A DNA stretch of 64,000 nucleotides from contig NZ_CP116615.1 of NCBI RefSeq assembly GCF_024832785.1, positions 2,914,001-2,978,000 of the forward strand, written 5' to 3'. Below the pieces are notes generated by a model. That model saw nothing but the letters and a program-made list of their open reading frames with translations, had not been told where the DNA came from and did not search any database. How positions within the stretch are numbered: position 1 is the first letter of the stretch; the number at the start of each line of letters is the position of its first letter. Of this stretch, positions 7,945-28,741 are shown piece after piece. The DNA is from Fontisphaera persica (GTDB taxonomy: Bacteria; Verrucomicrobiota; Verrucomicrobiia; Limisphaerales; Fontisphaeraceae). The position numbers and the translations under genes were made by a program.

Positions 7945-10900
7945 CTATGGATTGAGGAGGACGCGGTAGAAGCGGCGGGGGCGCCCCGTGGTGTCGTCCA
8001 CCACTTCCACTGTGCCGCTGCCAATTTGGGCGGGGCGCAGCGGTGTCCACTGCGCCGCGCGAAGGTCTTCCGTGTACTCAATCAAGTAGTTGACCGGCGC
8101 CGGCAGTTGGAAGGCAAAGCGGAATTGTCCGCTATTTTGCCACTGAAGGGCGAATAGTCGCGGGGCCAGCGCCGGCGGGGCCAGCCGATTGGGCAGCCCG
8201 GGTGTGGGATAGTTGAAAAAGGCCAGTGTGGCGGCGCCGTCAGGCAAGCGGCCCTGGCTGACATCATTGGTCTGTGGTCCAAAAGTTAGGGTATCCAGCG
8301 CGGTGATGCCATCGGGAGCGAACAGGCCGATGGCTTCGCCCGCCTGGCGCAGGGCAAAATTCACGTGCAACCCGGCACCCAGGGCATTCTGGCCGGTTTC
8401 ATTGTCGGCCCAGACGAGCAGGAAGCCGCGGGCGGGGATGACAAAACCATCGGGGATGCGGTACTGGCGCGGATTGGCCAGGTTGTCCGTCAAGTAATAA
8501 CCCGCCAAATTCACGGGGGAATCGCCGGGGTTGTGCAGCTCAAACCAGTCTTCAAAGTCCCCATCGGCCGGGTCAGCCACCGTCCGGTTGTTGGCCGCCA
8601 TCCATTCGTTAATAAAAAGGACGGGCAGCGGCTCGCGGGCATCGTTGGGCGCGCCAGGGCTGGGGTAATGGAAGGTCTGGCGGTAAAAGAGCTGTCCATC
8701 CGGCCACGCGCCATGCGAGCGGTCCGGGGCCAGGCGGTCGTAACGCAGCTCATCCAGCACCACGGTGGCATTGGAGGCAACCAGGGTCAGCACCACCACG
8801 CCGCTGGTGGGGGACAATCTGAAGTTCGTGTGCCATTCCCCCGCGGTGCTCTCGCCGGCCTCGCCGTCCGCCCAAACCAAGCGGAACTCTCCCGGCTGGA
8901 GCACGGCCCCCGTGGGGAAGGACCAGCGTTTCAGATGCTCCGGGTCCTCCGAAAGCCAGCATTGGGCCAGATTCACCGGCTCCGTGCCAGCATTATAAAT
9001 CTCAATCCATGGTTCGCGCTCGCCCATCCTGTCCACCGGTCCCGACCGGTTCTCCGCCTGCACTTCGTTGAGATAAATAGGCGGCAGCGCGGGCAAGGCC
9101 GCGAAGACGGAGTTTGACAAACCGGGGGTCAGGCGGGCAGTGCTCCCGGAGCCTGAACCGAGCGGCAAAGTCACGCGGAAACCCGCATTCACGTACAAGT
9201 TGAGCGTGCCGCGCCCGTCGGAGCGATACCAGAAACTGAGGGTGCCAACGGTGTTGGGCGGCAACCCGCCCGCGATGACGTTGGTCAGAGTCTGGTAAAA
9301 ATGGGATACACTGCCGGAGCCGACAGCATTGTGGAAACGCAGGCTCGCAGCGCCCGTGTGCGCCATGCCATTGGTGAGGTAGCTGTTGGTGGCAAGGCCG
9401 GAGGGGCTGACCATCCAGGTCGGCGCCAGGGGTGATTCAAAGCCGGCATTGGCCACATAATTGGTGCCGGCCTCTGGTGTGTCGCCCACCACCAGGGCAA
9501 GGTCATCCAGCAGGACTTCACCGCCGTTGTCGAAATAGAGGGACAACCGGCTGAAACGATTCACACTGCCCAGGTTGCCGGTGTAACTGAAAAACCGCCA
9601 GAGAGGGGTGTTGTCGCTCCAGTTGCCGGGTCGGCTGTTGTCCTGCGAGGGGTCCATGAGTTGCAGGGCGGCCCCCTGCCCCGCCGCGCCCGCAGGCCAG
9701 GGCGGCAGCGGACTATAACGCACGCGGTCCACGATGAGGTCAGGGGCGGGCGGGAGGCCGGGCTTTAACAAGGTCAACGTTTCGCCGTCCCCTTGCAGAT
9801 TGCCCGCAAACTGGCCCACAGCGGGCGCATTGATTCCGTAAGCATTCCAATAGGCATGCAAATCTTTGGTGACCACCACGTAGGCACCCGGCGCAATCCA
9901 GGCGCCCGGCGGGAAGGTGTAATCCAGGCCGTTGATGCGCCAACCCGACAAATCAAACCCGCTGGAGGAGGAGGCATTGTACAGCTCCACGTACTCCGCC
10001 CCCGACCAGGCGGGTTGATACATGATTTCGTTGAACAGGATTTTGCCCACCGGCGATTCCGGGGCCGCCTGGTACTCCACGGTCACCAGAGCGGAAGCGC
10101 CGGGTCTGGGGTTGCCCCAGCGATCCACGCCCTGAACTTGCAACGTTTGCACGCCCTGCGTCAAAGCCACGCGCAGCGTCCAGTTGGAAACCGTCGTCCA
10201 CGTCACCGGCCACGGAATGCCGTTCACCAGCAGGCGCTCCACTTCAATAGGCGCCGTGCCTGAGATGGTCAGCAAATTGGTCTGGGAAAGGAGGTTAGTG
10301 GGGGTGGTGACCGCAAAAACACTGCCGGCCTCGGCGGCGGCCTGGGTGAGGATTTGGTTGCGGCGGGCAGCCAGGTAATTCTTGATGGGCTGCGGCGAGC
10401 TTACCGGCGCGCCATTGGTTTGGAGGGCGGCGTAACGCGGGTCCAGCCAGGCATCGGCATTGGCGGGCAGGAAGGGACCGTTGGCCAACTCCAGCAAGGC
10501 CCGCCAGTAGGCGCGGCGATAAACCGGCACGGTGTACAAACCGGCCAGCACGGGGTCGGAGGAGCGGAATAAATCTGAGGTGGGCGGGTCGCTGGGAGCG
10601 GAGCCGAGCAGGATATCGGCGTCCACCGGCAACAAAATCCAGGGTTGTCCCTCCGGCCGGGTGAGGAAGACGTTTTGCCCGTTGTTGTTGCCCCAGGAAT
10701 CCCAGTTGCCAACAGCATGCTCAAAAGCAAACAACCGCATCCACTTGTCCGCATCCGCCAGCATGCTGAAGCGCGACTCCACCACGGAGAGGGGGAAGTT
10801 GGCCGCGTCCACCAGCGCAAACAGGTTGGTATAGGCCACCGCCGACTCCGGGTTGCCGCGCTGGGAGAAAATCCAGCGGTACCGCGCCAATTTTTTGGCG

Positions 10901-22256: not shown

Positions 22257-22352
22257 CCCCACCCAGCCCCCCACTACGCCGCCAGCGCCCCCGAATCCGC
22301 CCCATCAGCCGCTCGCCATATGCAGCAAAACCGCCCCGAGCCCATTCCCTGC

Positions 22353-22380
22353 TTGACAACACCCATGTCTGTACTACAGT
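22353..22380 (+). promoter_or_regulatory. Candidate sigma70-type promoter at the island's left end
   Basis: A perfect -35 (TTGACA, 22353-22358) is followed after 16 nt by TACAGT (22375-22380). It would start transcription close to the ATG at 22389 and could serve the defence genes downstream. Based only on consensus likeness. Confidence 0.3.
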
Positions 22381-22388
22381 CCCTGCCA

Positions 22389-22604
22389 ATGGCAGACTAC
22401 CAGCAAATTATTGATTCTCTTCGCGAAATGCATTTAGACGGCAACCGCCTTTGGCTGGTCGGCTACGGCGGCAGCAGAGACAGAATATTGGTCTACGCTT
22501 CAACAAATAATGCCAGGGCGCAGCGGAGGGCTAAGAACGCGCCACGGTTGAAGCACTCCCAAATGAGCAAACAAGCCCTGCAAAAGGGAGCTTGTCCACA
22601 TTGA
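22389..22604 (+). pseudogene. Probable decayed N-terminal fragment of a DndC-like sulfurtransferase
   Basis: This short frame (71 codons) begins with residues that resemble the start of DndC, the PAPS-reductase-like enzyme of DNA phosphorothioation. REMHLDGNRLWLVGY parallels the family's pattern of an acidic residue, a Trp and VGY just before the PP-loop. Where DndC has SGGKDS, this frame reads GGSRDR, so the nucleotide-binding loop would be dead, and similarity stops soon afterwards. It is best read as a remnant of a former phosphorothioation locus. The call rests on a short stretch from memory of the family and could be coincidence; a small unrelated protein is the alternative. Confidence 0.3.
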
Positions 22605-22652
22605 CTGCAAGCTTCCGGCGGGCGCAGCCTTCAAACCGCATGTCACGAGACA

Positions 22653-23680
22653 ATGAATTCTGCAGGCAACGGAACCCCAGTCAAAGTCGGCTCGCTGTTC
22701 GCTGCAATTGGCGGATTTTGCAGGGCTTTCATAGAAGCAGGCGCAACCGTTGTTTGGGCAAATGAAAAGGACAAATTGCAGGCTGAAACATTCCGCCTGA
22801 ACTACCCCAACGTCCGATGTCTCAACAAACCTATAGAAGAATTAACGGTCCTTGGCGATTGCCTTGAGGAAGTTGACGTATTAACGGCTGGATTTCCATG
22901 CCAACCTTTTTCAATAGCAGGGGAAAGGCGAGGTTTGAAGGATGAAAGAGGGCTGCTGTTTTTCCAAATAATACGAATTATAAAGGAGTTTGGCCGCAGA
23001 AAGCCCAAGGTGCTGCTGCTGGAGAATGTCAAACATTTCAAATCACATGACCAAGGCCGGACTTACAAGCGGGTTCAGACAGAAATTCAGAAGGCAGGTT
23101 ATTGGTTCGGGGATAGCAACGCAAAATTATGAACACACTGGAATACACAGTGATCCCCCAAAACCGAGAGCGTATCTTTATGGTCGCATTAAGCTGTGAC
23201 CATTTTGCAGCAAACCATTTCGAATTCCCAGAACCACTGCCAGACGGCTCACTGCGCAGTGTGCGCGAGTTTCTCGATTTAGACCAGAAAGCACCAGAGT
23301 GTTTTTACTTCAAGCCTTCCTCTAAATACTATCAGATGTTCGCCGAAGCTATGGCCTCAGGTGGAAGCGACTCGATATATCAACTGCGGCGAAACTACGT
23401 TAGGAAAAACATGACAGGCACGTGCTTTACGTTAATGGCCAACATGGGTGACGGAGGGCACAACCAGCCAGTAATTAGAGACCACTGGGGGATTCGAAAG
23501 CTGACCCCGCGCGAATGCGCACGCCTTCAAGGTTATGAGGACTCTTGGTTCAAAATTCCCGAGACACTCTCCAAGAGGCAAATATACAAGCAAATCGGCA
23601 ACTCCGTCACAGTGCCGTTAGTTGTTCGCATAGCTAAAAGATCATTGAATGCATGCACAATTGCGCTTAAAATGATTTGA
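22653..23680 (+). pseudogene. dcm: DNA cytosine-5 methyltransferase (Dcm family), single frameshift
   Basis: The enzyme would transfer a methyl group from S-adenosylmethionine to C5 of cytosine. The first frame (22653-23132) holds the SAM-binding motif (GSLFAAIGGF), the catalytic GFPCQPFS and the ENVK motif. The second (23129-23680) holds PQNRERIF, the LTPRECARLQGY target-region boundary and QIGNSVTVPL. Together they give about 342 aa, normal for the family. The frames join at TTATGA near 23127; restoring one base gives a continuous K-L-M-N-T-L-E-Y. The junction also forms an ATGA stop/start overlap, so a genuine two-subunit enzyme (as known for M.AquI) is possible. Similar deletions in the neighbours make a deletion, real or technical, more likely. 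First gene of a defence operon. Confidence 0.85.
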
Positions 23681-23690
23681 GGAATTTCTT

Positions 23691-25565
23691 ATGCCTGAAC
23701 TACGGTGGTTTTTCCCAAAAAACGATGGGGGCGCGATAGCGGGCTTCATGACGCCGGGGTTGAAACGTTCAAAGGAAATTTTGACCGCTACCTAGCGCGT
23801 GAAATGATACAGAACAGCCTTGACGCCAGGCATGACCAGTCTAAGCCGGTGGTTGTCGTATTTGAGCATTTGGTACTTTCGCGAAATGACATACCAGACA
23901 TGGATGGGCTTTCAAATGCTCTTGAACTATGTAGAGAGTACTGGCAACACGATAAGAAAGCCGAAGATTTTTCCGTCGCGCTGTGGATGTTTCTAGAAGA
24001 AATATAATTCCCGCGCTTCGAATAGGAGACTACAACACAACGGGCGTGCTGGGCAGTGACATGGACGAGATCTAAGAATTGGTATAATTTGATTCGATGT
24101 GCCGGCTCTTCCTCAAAGGGTGAAGGCGAAGGTGGCTCGTTTGGCATCGGAAAGAACGCGCCATTCGCTGCTAGCTTGCTCCGGACAGTTCTCTATACTA
24201 CGTTTAACACGGATGAGGAGCATGTATTCCAAGGAGTAGCAACGCTTGCGTCACACCGCCATCCGGCAGGTGGCACTTTGCAACCAACGGGGTTTCTCGG
24301 CGAGCCTAACGGAGCTTCAGTAAGGAGTTTTGAGAACATTCCAGCTATCTTTCGTCGCTTACGGCATGGAACGGACGTAATTGTTCTTGGCTTTCCCGAC
24401 TCCTACAATTGGCACAATGATCTTCTATATTCAGTTCTGGATAACTTCTGGCCGGCTATCTATTATGGCGATTTGGAAGTGAAAGTGGGCGACATGCAAG
24501 TTTCGAAAAACAACTTGCAGAACCTGTTAGAAACTTTTATTCCAATGGAGGGCTTCACTGCTCATCAATTTTACAAGGCCTTTACTAACCCAACTCACGA
24601 ATATTCAGAATGTTTGACTTGTTTGAAAGAAGTCTCGCTTAGAATTATTGCAGGGGACCCCGAACTGCCGAAGCGCATCGCAATGGTTAGAAAAACCGGC
24701 ATGAAAATATTTGAGAAACATTTTCGTTCAATAGTTCCTTTCTGTGGGGTCTTTATGTGCCGCAATGATATTGGCAATAAGCTGCTGCGAGAAATGGAAC
24801 CGCCCCGCCACGATGCCTGGGATCCTGATCATCCTGAAAAAGGTGCAAATCGAAGAATTGAGTCTGAATACGTTAACTTTATCCGTGAATGCATACGCAA
24901 GCTGTCGCAGCCTGACGACGCTAAAGTTATCTCCGTCCCTGATCTTAGCCGTTTCCTGCCCGACGATGACGAAACGCCTGAGGAGTCTTTCGATCTCAAC
25001 TTGAGCGGCACCTCTAGCACACCATCGGCTCCTGAAGTGATTAAGGGGCGCAAAATTGAAAGGGACAAAATGTCCATGCAGGAGGACCACATGTCGCCAT
25101 CCGATGGAGACCAAGAAACCCAAGAATGGAGTTACGGCAGCATGGAAAACTCGCCTAAAGGCAATAGTACGTCTGATGATAGATCTGAAGGGGCCGGAAG
25201 CAGAAGCGGCTCCAATAACGCAGCCGATTCATCAGCTTCACATGGCGGCGAAAACTCGAAACCAGCTATAAAGATACGTTATCGCACCTTTGTCCGGGAC
25301 TCCACTTCCGGCGAGTATCGCGTTACAGTGACACCATTAGAACAGCCAAGCAAAGAAGTTGAGCTTTCGATTTCGGCAGTCGGAGATGACCAAAAGTTGC
25401 TGCCGAAATAAAATCGGCGAGAATTACGGGTGGAGAGAATATTGCCATTAAGAAAACAGGCATTCTCGGCCCTCTGAAGTTACAAAAGACCAGCGCGTGG
25501 TTTTAGACATAGTACTGTCAGAGCCGCTGCGCGTAGCTATGGAGGTCTCCGCACATGAAGCTTAG
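23691..25565 (+). pseudogene. GHKL (MutL/MORC-like) ATPase of a restriction-modification island, multiply frameshifted
   Basis: The rebuilt protein is about 626 aa starting at the ATG at 23691 (ELRWFFPKNDGG). It shows an N box (REMIQNSLDA), then ALRIGDYNTTG matching the second ATP-binding motif, and GSFGIGKNAPFA, the lid/G2 box. These define a GHKL ATPase as in MutL, MORC and Hsp90. The frame is broken at five places: G-run 23727-23731, T-run 23968-23972, about 24073 (2 bases), A-run 25392-25395 and about 25496. Each is repaired by restoring 1 or 2 deleted bases, and no nonsense codon was found in the rebuilt frame. The longest single open piece is 24056-25411. The repaired stop overlaps the next gene by 11 bp. 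GHKL ATPases next to dcm and vsr are known from R-M neighbourhoods; the exact role is unknown. Confidence 0.75.
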
Positions 25566-26397
25566 CCAACGATCATATCCCCATCCAGTTGTCGGCAATC
25601 GCGATGATGTTCCAAACGTTGCTTTTCAGGCAGCCGTCGAAATGTCGTCGGACAAACAATATTATTACATTAAGTTGGAGATCAAATGCAGCAGCGTTAC
25701 AATCAATCAAATGCTCATAAATGAAGAGGCCAAATACGTTCTGCACGTAGAGTGCAGCAACACGCTGTTTCGCAAGGCCTTTATGTTTTCCAAGTCCCAG
25801 CATCGAATTAGCATACCTGCAGATTGCCTGTACAACACCGTTGAAGTGAATGTTTTTGTTTGTTCCTGTATTGATAATTCGGGTTATTCAGTAGAGGGAG
25901 CGCACCAAGAATATGAAGACGCTACATTTCAAATTCGTCTCGGAGATATACTCGCTGTAGCCGAAGGCTACGAATTCAATATCGAGGACTCTTTTGACTC
26001 GACAAGACGAATCGGGTCAATAATGCAAATCGAAGAGGCCCGCGAAGAAGGCGACCTCCCAATGCGCGTTGACTTCAACGCAGATAAAATTCGGATCATT
26101 TTATCAAAAAGCGATTTTGGAGATTATAAATTACTTAAAGCTCAAGAAGGTGTTTCATCCGCGCTGACAGCTACTATCGTGCTGCCAGCCCTTGTAGAGG
26201 CACTGCATTGCTGCAAGGCAGAAGAAGCTGGCCAGAGAGATGACAGCTTGCGCTGGATGCGTTTGTTGCGTAAGCGCATTACACTGCTCAACTTGGAATC
26301 GGAAACAGATAATTTAGTGCTCGCCCAAAAATTACTTGAATTGCCATTGCGGCGCGCATTAACTGCATCGAAGCAGGTATTGGAGGCCGCATCATGA
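25555..26397 (+). CDS. Uncharacterised protein of the dcm-ATPase-vsr island
   Basis: The product is 280 aa and is the only undamaged gene in this operon. I do not recognise a named domain. The N-terminus has a distinctive YPHPVVGNRDDV stretch. The first 180 residues look beta-rich with alternating hydrophobics (YYYIKLEIKCSS; KYVLHVECS). An acidic stretch (IEEAREEGDLP) precedes a helical C-terminal third (RWMRLLRKRITLLN). It has no signal peptide or membrane helix, so it should be cytoplasmic. The start overlaps the ATPase end by 11 bp and its stop overlaps the next start by ATGA, so the genes are tightly coupled. It is probably a partner of the ATPase or of the restriction step, from position only. 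Confidence 0.8.
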   Translation: MKLSQRSYPHPVVGNRDDVPNVAFQAAVEMSSDKQYYYIKLEIKCSSVTINQMLINEEAKYVLHVECSNTLFRKAFMFSKSQHRISIPADCLYNTVEVNVFVCSCIDNSGYSVEGAHQEYEDATFQIRLGDILAVAEGYEFNIEDSFDSTRRIGSIMQIEEAREEGDLPMRVDFNADKIRIILSKSDFGDYKLLKAQEGVSSALTATIVLPALVEALHCCKAEEAGQRDDSLRWMRLLRKRITLLNLESETDNLVLAQKLLELPLRRALTASKQVLEAAS

Positions 26398-27178
26398 AAG
26401 AGCTTACATTATTTAAGGAAACGTTTGTGAACAGCCTGCGAGGGAGCGTGCGGCAAAATTTGAACAATTACTATTCAGATACTATTTGGGTATCCGACCA
26501 AGTACCGAAGAACCAGCTTATTCTGACCTCATTCGAGTTAAAAGACACACTTGAGTTTGTGGAACCGGCCGATGGCGACCTCAAAGACATTGAAAATGCC
26601 ATTCGTATTCACAAAGCCATGCCGCACCTTACGCCGCTGCAAGCTCGAGATCCCCGCCTATGGACCCGGCTGACGCATGATGAAGGATGGTCTTATATGC
26701 GAAAGCGCTGGCCGGCAGACAAGTATAGGGAAGACGTAAACAAGGCGGTCAAGTTCATCGAGTCGCGATATTTTATCACCCAGGCACAGGGCAGGGCACT
26801 ACTGAGGAACGGCATTGCCCGTTTGTGGTGGACAGCCAGCCTGTCCCACGATCCTGCACGCGACAATCCATATGAACTCACGGCAATATTATTGTCTAGA
26901 CTGGACATTACGCAGCAGATTTTGGAGCGTGGAATTGGCCGTTCGCGGCAAGTATTGGTTGGTTTTTAGAATTTCTAAAGCGCCACAAGGCTCTCTTGCT
27001 TGAAGACGGAAATAACAGCCGTTTACGCGTTCGTAAGCTCGCAAAGTTTCTTAATATGCATGGAGGCGTTTGTATTCTGGATTGCTTGAGCGAAAGGCAG
27101 GTCATGGATCTCCTTGATGCAGAACTGTCAAGAATTCAAGCAATTGAAGCGACCTCTTCTCAGCATCCAGATGGGTAA
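26394..27178 (+). pseudogene. DUF6339-like protein, one frameshift
   Basis: Restoring one base in the T5 run at 26963-26967 joins two frames (26394-26969 and a continuation through GWFLEFLKRHKALLLEDGN to 27178) into about 261 aa. The protein is helical and charged, with no catalytic motif I recognise. From memory it resembles a family labelled DUF6339, which occurs beside dcm and vsr; this was not checked. Its start overlaps the upstream gene by 4 bp (ATGA) and its stop overlaps the vsr start (TAATG), which marks it as an integral part of the operon. It could be the restriction component, but nothing in the sequence shows nuclease residues. Confidence 0.6.
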
Positions 27179-27624
27179 TGGACGTGTTTAGCAAGCGTGA
27201 GCTCGCAAATTATGTCGCGCATTCGGAGTTGTGAAAACGCAACCACCGAGATTCGTCTTATTCAACTTTTTCGAATCCACAAAATCAAAGGCTGGAGGCG
27301 AAACCAAAGACTTCCTGGTAAACCTGATTTTGTCTTCCCTAAAAGTCGTCTCGCTGTATTCGTTGACGGTTGTTTTTGGCATGGTTGCCCTCGCTGTTAT
27401 CGCCGTCCTCTTTCAAACCAACAATATTGGGACGCGAAAATTCTTCGAAACCGCCAGCGAGACGTTGACGTGAAAAGGTGCCTAAAAAACTCGGCTGGCG
27501 TGTTGTTCGTATTTGGGCACACGAGCTTAAGAAGCCAGCGCGCGCGCTTGCTCGCATTCGTTTGTATCTTGAGCCGTCTTTGGGGAGCGTTCCTTCTGCA
27601 CGCACCCCGCCTAAAGGCAGTTAA
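27178..27624 (+). pseudogene. vsr: Very short patch repair endonuclease (Vsr), two frameshifts
   Basis: Vsr nicks beside T:G mismatches that arise when 5-methylcytosine deaminates, so it is the natural companion of a Dcm enzyme. The ATG at 27178 overlaps the previous stop (TAATG) and gives MDVFSKRE. Restoring two bases near 27202 continues into SQIMSRIRSCEN and the catalytic-region pattern GKPDFVFPKSRLAVFVDGC followed by FWHGCP. Restoring one A in the run 27473-27476 continues into KLGWRVVRIWAHELKK, the typical Vsr C-terminal strand, and a stop at 27622-27624. The repaired length is about 149 aa, normal for Vsr. The uninterrupted central piece is 27197-27646 in a frame that runs past the true end. 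Confidence 0.8.
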
Positions 27625-27712
27625 AAATGTGATGTTCGTGTTATAGAAGTACCAATCAAATTTTGGTCTTCATGATCAAACATTCTTTCAACATTCTGCT
27701 AAGCAATGCCGC

Positions 27713-28083
27713 TCAAACCTTAAGTAGGCATTTTATTTTTTCAACGCCTGTAGTCTCATTTTCTTTTCTCCTTTTGTATGCATCAAGGAGCCTGGCGATT
27801 TCGCATTGAAGTTTTTCGGGGGCGTCTGAATATTCGCGCCAATTTCTATTTCGTCGTTTGAGCCATGCCTCAGTCCTTTTACGCCACGGGCAGCCAGTTT
27901 CGGGTCAAGGCGGGCGAAGTTACACAGCTTAAGCGCAACTGCGCTTGGGGTTCTGCCAAGTAGAGCGGCGAGTTCGATGACTTCTGGAGTGCGGCTATGC
28001 ATCTGGCCGAACGGTATTTTTCGGTAAAGGCTAAGGGCTAGAGTAAGCTCCTCGCGGCTCCACTTCTTATTTTTACCAGCCAT
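27713..28083 (-). pseudogene. N-terminal domain of an HNH-type restriction nuclease, truncated and frameshifted
   Basis: The start (KKWSREELTLALSLYRKIPFG, then GRTPSAVALKLCNFARLDP and ARGVKGLRHGSNDEIEI) matches the helical N-terminal region common in HNH endonucleases of R-M and defence loci. One lost base near 27841 shifts the frame; repairing it gives WREYSDAPEKLQ and a stop at 27713, about 123 aa in all. The HNH catalytic part, which normally follows, is absent. It converges on the dcm operon and begins 3 bp after the vapC stop. It is probably a remnant of the restriction partner; a stand-alone short protein is possible. Confidence 0.55.
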
Positions 28084-28086
28084 AAT

Positions 28087-28495
28087 TCAATCATTCAGCC
28101 AGTTAATTTTAACCTCGCTTTCCAAAGCTTTGAATCTGGGGTCGCCGGTGACGAGGGTGGCCTTTTGGTTTTGGCCAGGGCGGCGGCAAAGCCGTTGGCA
28201 TAGGCCATTTTGTGGGCGGCCTTGAAAACCGCCGCCTGCCTCACCAGGGCCAGATCGTCGCCCACACCGACAATCTCGATGGGAAGCGCAGCGATCTCGC
28301 GCGCCATTTGCTCCGCCGCCTCCTGGGAGATCTTGCGCATGGTGTTGTAGTAGATTTCGCCCCAGTTCACGGCGCTCAGCAGCAGCTTGTGCCGCCCCGC
28401 CGCCGCCTGAGCCAGCAGTTTTTCCACCGCCGCCGCCGCCGGTTCATCTTCAAAAAGGCCAGGAGCGCCCAGCCATCGAGGACAAAAGCAGCCAT
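28087..28495 (-). pseudogene. vapC: VapC-type PIN-domain toxin, two frameshifts
   Basis: Rebuilt, this is about 136 aa of PIN fold, an RNase that cuts structured RNA when its antitoxin is lost. The start gives AAFVLDGWALLAFLK (first acidic residue). Restoring one base near 28448 continues into EPAAAAVEKLLAQA and VNWGEIYYN (second acidic residue). Restoring one A in the run at 28169-28172 gives ATLVTGDPRFKALE (last Asp) and a stop at 28087-28089. The third acidic site usually reads YAD but is YAN here (MAYANGFAAA), which may weaken metal binding. The start follows the vapB stop by one base. The longest single open piece is 28095-28427. Confidence 0.75.
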
Positions 28496-28496
28496 G

Positions 28497-28741
28497 TCAC
28501 AGCTCCCGTTCGGCCTGGCGATCCTCCATCATGGCCTTGAGCACGCCGCGGCCCTTGAGCGAGCCGCGCAGCCTGCGGATGTATTTGGGGGTGATGGGGC
28601 GCAGGAGGATGCCTTCCGGCGTGGCCTCCACATGCGCGCGCGTCCCCTCCTCGATCTCGAATCCCGCCGCAGGCGGCGGGGAATGACCACCTGGCCTTTG
28701 ACCGAGAAGCTCACGGTTTCCGCTTTGGCCTCTTGATTCAC
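28497..28741 (-). pseudogene. vapB: VapB-type AbrB-fold antitoxin, one frameshift
   Basis: The N-terminus (ETVSFSVKGQVVIPRRLRR) is a classic AbrB/SpoVT DNA-binding strand pattern from a GTG start at 28741. One missing T near 28660 shifts the frame; repairing it gives IEEGTRAHVEATPEGILLRP and a C-terminal helix, 81 aa in total, ending one base before the vapC start. In this class the antitoxin neutralises VapC and represses its own promoter. An AT-rich inverted stretch (CTTACATGATAAAAAAAGTAAG, about 28750-28771) just upstream may hold the promoter and operator. Confidence 0.72.

Follow-up and report, generated by a model that had tools for sequence, protein, structure and literature searches.

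Do the five adjoining genes found at 22653-27646 of this stretch of Fontisphaera persica DNA (64,000 nucleotides, positions 2,914,001 to 2,978,000 of contig NZ_CP116615.1, hereafter the window) make up a single restriction-modification (R-M) system? All lie on the + strand and encode, in order, a C5 cytosine DNA methyltransferase (dcm), a GHKL ATPase, a 280-residue protein, a DUF6339 protein and a Vsr-type endonuclease (vsr), and a preliminary description, made without database searches, treated them as one operon. Comparison with relatives leads to a different answer. On the evidence of sequence comparison, the conserved unit is formed by the three middle genes, A, B and C, in some loci preceded by a small gene S, and the R-M neighbours are exchanged around that unit. 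The locus in the window itself reads as a decayed 5-methylcytosine (m5C) R-M island, composed of dcm, vsr and the remnant of an HNH enzyme gene, together with a broken copy of the trio.

The ATPase, the 280-residue protein and the DUF6339 protein correspond, in the same order, to PDC-M33A, B and C of PADLOC-DB 2.0.0, A and C being broken in the window. Full-text searches of PMC for 'PDC-M33' and 'DUF6339' (open-access literature, bioRxiv preprints excluded) returned no paper. The neighbourhoods of the trio were compared across 93 loci, comprising 9 plasmid or phage records, the best 80 of 249 genome relatives and 4 viral contigs; the 80 genome loci derive from a Bacillota query, which gives Bacillota too much weight and leaves out divergent trios. 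The full set of A, B and C occurs in 88 of the 93 loci; a search for the three together had been proposed in the preliminary description. The five exceptions are technical, since four (L048, L056, L064 and L070) run off the edge of a contig and in the fifth (L057) gene C was removed by the overlap filter. In a census of 398 Bacilli genomes, which includes the centre genome, picked for having the trio, A was matched in 16 genomes, B in 14 and C in 10, with all three in 8. Partial sets comprised A and B without a C match in 4 genomes, A and C in one and A alone in three (the A matches of these last two groups being weak and partial), B and C without A in one (with stops) and B alone in one (partial). 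A census of the window's phylum for M33B found it in 1 of 194 genomes, the window's own, and the window ATPase alone, used as query against viral contigs, gave no match.

In 32 of the 93 loci (e.g. L003-L009) A is preceded, at a distance of at most 400 bp, by the small gene S, which is conserved and helical-looking, encodes 62-91 residues and has no Pfam family. The window has no S gene ahead of its ATPase. A protein of around 1000 residues, with helix-hairpin-helix (HHH), RpoA-CTD-like and sigma-r4-like repeats (985 residues in L058, 13502-16459), is encoded in 11 loci, immediately after C in all but one of them, and is a candidate fourth subunit of one sub-branch.

The neighbours of the trio are a good deal more variable than the trio itself. 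Of the 93 loci, 47 have a C5 methyltransferase within 4 kb and 50 have one within 8.5 kb, while the other 43, some of them on short contigs, have none within 8.5 kb. The density of such genes is 17.6 per 100 kb at distances of up to 1 kb, compared with 0.6 at 6-8.5 kb, and where a genome has a single C5 methyltransferase that gene is beside the trio in 10 of 15 cases. Among the trio-linked C5 methyltransferases scanned, at least three PADLOC subfamilies are represented (PDLC03272, PDLC03378 and PDLC03225). By clustering, Vsr is within 4 kb in 12 loci, and a thirteenth, in L007, is annotated but was missed by the gene caller used. C5 methyltransferase, trio genes and Vsr thus do occur together elsewhere, in those 12 loci, all on one strand in six of them (L009, L039, L040, L056, L062 and L065; the L056 contig ends inside B). 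Either Vsr (12) or an HhH-GPD glycosylase (7) is present in 19 loci, all 19 with a C5 methyltransferase. Restriction enzymes near the trio vary, with the MutH/Sau3AI type in 13 loci alongside the AlwI type, HNH and others, and further defence neighbours include DUF3427 helicases, McrC, GmrSD, Z1, MZA genes, AbiD, AbiGii and DndB. The trio also meets sulfur-modification genes: in L054 a DndB-family gene (8745-9833) is directly upstream of A-B-C. As Vsr accompanies the trio in 12 loci and a C5 methyltransferase in 47, out of 93, the preliminary view of the five genes as one fixed system finds no support, and the conserved unit is A-B-C.

Comparison of related loci points the same way. A tree of M33A, a quick one with long branches, requires no fewer than 16 changes of the C5-linkage label. 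In six of the eight locus pairs compared at the DNA level, the aligned block that contains the trio begins no more than about 110 bp from the start of A (from that of S in L008/L012) and stops close to the end of C. L025 and L026 are 96% identical from a point shortly ahead of A until close to the end of C; trio-bounded blocks are likewise seen in L026/L031, L014/L016 and L008/L012, that of the last pair including S. L019 and L020 are 99.6% identical through the end of C, their upstream similarity continuing to the end of the L019 contig, and diverge after C, where a C5 methyltransferase and MutH-type genes follow in one locus and a different set in the other. The shared block of L028/L038 reaches about 490 bp upstream. 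Some flanks are related, a stretch with a DUF3427 helicase being common to several pairs, at other distances. Because no m5C methyltransferase was found in 9 of the 47 trio genomes (no PF00145 match at E ≤ 1e-10), related trios stand beside different R-M genes and homology ends at or near the trio edges, we regard the trio as a cassette that plugs into R-M loci. Intact relatives suggest that this cassette moves as a unit between different restriction systems. The idea of one fixed five-gene operon was dropped on account of the differing R-M neighbours of related trios.

By sequence similarity, the window belongs to the arrangement in which a C5 methyltransferase directly precedes A, confirmed by eye in 14 loci. 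Its dcm, the only PF00145 gene detected in this genome, has PDLC03272 MTase_II as top PADLOC model and is 52-57% identical to the methyltransferases directly upstream of A in L076, L078, L084, L086, L090 and L093, the next closest being 42% identical. A minimal form of the arrangement, a C5 methyltransferase then (S-)A-B-C, is seen for instance in L073 (where it is the entire 6.7-kb contig), L070 and L093, with no recognised nuclease among the neighbours scanned. Co-evolution of methyltransferase and A (Mantel r 0.79 for 14 loci called upstream, 0.68 for 36 others) was considered and dropped, because shared ancestry explains the correlation and the position filter could misplace downstream genes upstream.

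The gene junctions of the window, read directly from the sequence, are as the preliminary description gave them: 10 bp separate the dcm stop (ending at 23680) from the ATG at 23691, A and B share an 11-nt overlap, ATGAAGCTTAG, B and C meet at ATGA, and C and vsr at TAATG. These spacings are not due to chance, since like overlaps recur in relatives. Of 80 loci, 38 have an A-B overlap of 11 nt, the commonest value, and 73 have one of 11-17 nt, while a 4-nt overlap is the most frequent B-C spacing (22 of 73). The operon stretch has a G+C content of 47.5%, against 64% and 62% in its flanks, as would be expected of an acquired island.

In spite of the breaks in the gene, the motifs of the window ATPase are legible, with an N-box (REMIQNSLDA), a G-box (GGSFGIG) and an ExxxH motif (EPPRHDAW). 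The ATP-binding motifs (N-box, D-box and G-boxes) are intact in relatives, E37, D114, G153, G155, R344, E381 and H385 being invariant in 90 of 90 full-length M33A sequences and N41 kept in 89; M33A is built for ATP hydrolysis. In the passages on paraMORC2 by Iyer, Abhiman and Aravind (2008; PMC2292703), the family is recognised by an ExxxH motif close to where the S5 domain ends, and the S5 placement of the M33A motif is taken from there; E381 and H385 supply it in all 90 relatives. The MORC family proper has instead a GhXhhpXXRhl motif in the S5 domain, according to the same passages, which associate paraMORC2 ATPases with cytosine methylases and Vsr in R-M operons and propose that they drive DNA looping with ATP. 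The neighbourhood of the trio agrees with that placement, containing DNA methyltransferases, Vsr and nucleases of the restriction-endonuclease fold. No MutL model of Pfam or NCBIfam matched the window ATPase at E ≤ 1, the two pieces searched both coming from the broken gene. The preliminary assignment of a MutL/MORC-type ATPase in an m5C R-M context is upheld.

For the two partner proteins, structures were modelled. The AlphaFold2 model of the window M33B (mean predicted local distance difference test, pLDDT, 92.4; predicted template modelling score, pTM, 0.72) has a beta-sandwich as its N-terminal half and a helical C-terminal part. Its residues 2-147 resemble immunoglobulin (Ig)/FN3-like sandwiches (best VIA Z 8.3, root mean square deviation 2.7 over 81 residues), a level at which unrelated folds score likewise, and its C-terminal helices are barely covered by the comparison. 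M33C was modelled from the L065 homologue rather than the window copy (pLDDT 95.7, pTM 0.91) and is nearly all helical. By Foldseek (E ≤ 0.001) that model matched nothing in PDB or BFVD, and with a best VIA Z of 4.9 over 72 residues among 162 chains no fold match was obtained. Conserved charged residues of M33C are D68, E90, R91, R108, R133, R142, D152 and D228. Profiles of A, B and C matched no PDB sequence, PHROGs has no family for B or C, and no nuclease was recognised in the trio, either with these profiles or among the fold matches listed for the B and C models. This accords with the earlier remark that two of the five proteins lacked a role and that Vsr was the only obvious nuclease among them.

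The preliminary description spoke of junctions seen 'after repair', and the need for repair is plain. Frameshift-aware alignment to relatives places one break in dcm (seen against both L076 and L093), one in the DUF6339 gene, one in vsr and none in the 280-residue gene; the ATPase has five breaks against one relative, and four plus two in-frame stops against another. An additional break near the start of vsr was read by eye, and the total is 7-9 across four of the five genes. Profile matches are divided correspondingly. PF00145 covers dcm in two pieces, 22653-23132 (E 2.4e-39) and 23129-23680 (E 1.9e-21), and PDC-M33A likewise matches at 23705-24007 (E 2.9e-29) and 24056-25411 (E 2.1e-97). PF19866 has E 2.2e-40 on 26394-26969 and E 4.1e-4 for a C-terminal piece in another frame to about 27178, the match of this gene to PDC-M33C having E 3.7e-47. 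For vsr, PF03852 gives E 2.2e-15 and TIGR00632 E 2.9e-21, the latter below its cut-off because the gene is broken.

The HNH-type gene on the opposite strand had been suggested as a possible source of restriction. It is indeed R-M related, matching PDLC04132 with E 3.7e-30, and L010 has an intact homologue in the order A-B-C-HNH-dcm. The suggestion does not hold for the window copy, which is cut to its N-terminal third: the match covers positions 25-124 of 286 in the profile, and the remnant, 47% identical to residues 3-82 of the 263-residue L010 enzyme, lacks the region of the HNH_2 domain (152-202 in L010). Of the components of a type II m5C R-M system, the window therefore has a C5 methyltransferase, broken, and this HNH remnant in place of an intact cognate restriction endonuclease.

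Could the breaks be sequencing or assembly errors, the operon being intact in the organism? They are one- or two-base frame changes, several near runs of A, T or G, no single nonsense change stands out and M33B is intact, all as errors might leave it. We nevertheless think this unlikely, given the truncated HNH gene and two controls. Among 45 ABC-transporter domain matches in the same genome, 38 are full length, and all 38 of these are in one frame; the other seven are partial, inside long open frames. Runs of at least five identical bases are equally common in four neighbouring genes (62 in 13.1 kb) and in the operon (21 in 5.0 kb), yet those genes stay single open frames, although in such GC-rich DNA long frames also occur by chance. 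Uniform sequencing error is disfavoured by these controls, a local assembly fault less clearly so. In its present state the operon can hardly be functional.

What might an intact cassette do? We hold with moderate confidence that it provides an ATP-gated, MORC-like DNA clamp working with B, C and neighbouring nucleases against invading DNA, and infer every step of the mechanism beyond the family identification. M33A dimers would close on DNA upon ATP binding, like MutL and MORC, with M33B and M33C acting as adaptor and/or loader. The closed clamp might mark or bridge DNA perceived as foreign, the cue being unmethylated DNA where the partner is a C5 methyltransferase and another cue elsewhere, and would either recruit or activate the adjoining nuclease (Vsr, MutH/Sau3AI type or HNH) or hold the DNA until it is destroyed. 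In the relevant passages of the sources, eukaryotic MORC2 clamps and compacts DNA (PMC12216690), and in E. coli MutL is a partner of Vsr and MutH, to which it hands over DNA (PMC2292703). In favour of this reading are the PADLOC matches, the kept catalytic and ExxxH residues, the tight A-B-C set, the exchange of R-M neighbours and the C5 linkage: 28 of 47 trio genomes have a C5 methyltransferase within 4 kb, against 0.29 expected from uniform placement. Several points weigh against it. The expected value ignores defence-island clustering, and the 47 genomes are not independent. Methylation cannot be the general cue, because of the nine genomes lacking a PF00145 match. The trios of L044, L048, L049 and L064 are beside housekeeping genes (glyS in L049, rpoC in L064), with no adjoining R-M gene, and the open-access literature searched yielded no experiment on the trio.

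A dedicated R-M system, in which dcm protects the host, A-B-C itself restricts, M33B or M33C holding an unrecognised nuclease, and Vsr only repairs deaminated m5C, would suit the minimal loci L073, L070 and L093, the closeness of the window dcm to methyltransferases directly upstream of A in six loci, and the many conserved charged residues of M33C. It seems rather unlikely to us in view of the nine genomes in which no C5 methyltransferase was found, the several PADLOC subfamilies spanned by the linked enzymes, and the want of any PDB sequence match or of a nuclease among the fold matches listed. We are about as doubtful that the trio is an independent anti-phage system, possibly acting by abortive infection, that sits in defence islands and is linked to methyltransferases without function. 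Stand-alone trios, genomes without a C5 methyltransferase and the variety of defence neighbours (DUF3427 helicases, McrC, GmrSD, Z1/MZA, AbiD, AbiGii, DndB) speak for it; the roughly 30-fold drop in C5 methyltransferase density from 0-1 kb to 6-8.5 kb, and the lone C5 methyltransferases beside the trio, are steeper than island membership alone suggests. Highly improbable is a role as repair aid, with a MutL-like ATPase loading Vsr or MutH-type nucleases at G:T mismatches from m5C deamination and limiting mutations rather than phages. The cooperation of MutL with Vsr and MutH in E. coli, as treated in part of PMC2292703, would be its precedent, and the 19 trios near a Vsr or glycosylase gene, all with a C5 methyltransferase, fit; 74 of the 93 loci have neither repair gene by clustering, and trios exist where no C5 methyltransferase was found.

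A bolder variant of the clamp, which we rate as distinctly improbable, is a nuclease-free, methylation-aware device for silencing DNA. In minimal operons (C5 methyltransferase, S, A, B and C) the methyltransferase would mark self, and the MORC-like clamp, loaded by M33C with its new fold, would entrap and compact unmarked invading DNA, blocking transcription and replication. If true, this would be a bacterial counterpart of MORC transposon silencing in plants and animals, portable as an add-on between R-M systems.

The MZA defence system comprises MzaB, MzaC/Z1 and others. Like the present loci, its defence operon combines DNA methyltransferases with a MutL-like GHKL ATPase. MZA genes adjoin the trio in L076, and Z1 with the same MzaB-like cluster in L078, L086 and L090. 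In these Paenibacillus loci an MzaB-like GHKL protein (L076, 15453-17033) and Z1 are beside the trio and two C5 methyltransferases. M33A and the MzaB-like protein are, however, separate side-by-side genes in L076-type loci, giving two GHKL ATPases per locus, and no Z1 or Mza match was found among the window proteins scanned (22320-28741). VcSduA, a Shedu protein whose N-terminal GHKL ATPase is proposed, in the part of PMC12137116 concerned, to control a defence nuclease, is similar in principle, but there the nuclease is fused to the ATPase, whereas none was recognised in the trio. The paraMORC2 group shares with M33A the ExxxH, the GHKL motifs and an R-M neighbourhood with DCM and Vsr, and differs in that the passages of PMC2292703 concerned contain neither B and C partners nor exchange of a cassette between R-M systems. 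PDC-M33, finally, is matched strongly and in order by all three window proteins; it is a phage-defence candidate of the database, and the window copy is broken. Since the trio already has a name as a candidate and the link of its ATPase family to R-M dates from 2008, the window copy is not a new kind of system. The comparison adds a sharply bounded unit for experiments: three genes, joined by translational overlaps that relatives conserve, change R-M loci together as a cassette, and for one of the proteins (M33C) no fold match was found. It also adds natural pairs such as L019/L020, where different R-M genes flank nearly identical cassettes. With the unit and the pairs, the long-standing question of the role of MORC/MutL-like ATPases in R-M systems can be tested directly.

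Features of the locus, in window coordinates. The vsr end at 27624 is that of the preliminary description, the PF03852 match having been read within 27197-27646.
Feature	Coordinates	Strand	Match and state
C5 cytosine DNA methyltransferase (dcm)	22653..23680	+	PF00145; two frames, broken near 23124
paraMORC2-type GHKL ATPase, PDC-M33A	23691..25565	+	PADLOC; broken at about 4 or 5 places
PDC-M33B, 280 residues	25555..26397	+	PADLOC, E 3.2e-63; sole uninterrupted gene
DUF6339 protein, PDC-M33C	26394..27178	+	PF19866; one frame break near 26961
Vsr-type endonuclease	27178..27624	+	PF03852; broken near 27491, probably also near start
HNH restriction endonuclease, N-terminal remnant	27733..28083	-	PADLOC PDLC04132; HNH domain absent

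Two weaker resemblances border the island. Ahead of dcm, a 72-residue open stretch on the + strand (22386-22601) has a weak likeness to the N-terminus of DndC (PADLOC DndC, E 0.031; tblastn against Streptomyces dndC, E 0.3) and is perhaps the remnant of a second defence system. At 28095-28741 on the - strand there is a weak PIN-domain match (E 0.014) with a small open frame upstream, possibly a decayed VapBC-like toxin-antitoxin pair beside the island.

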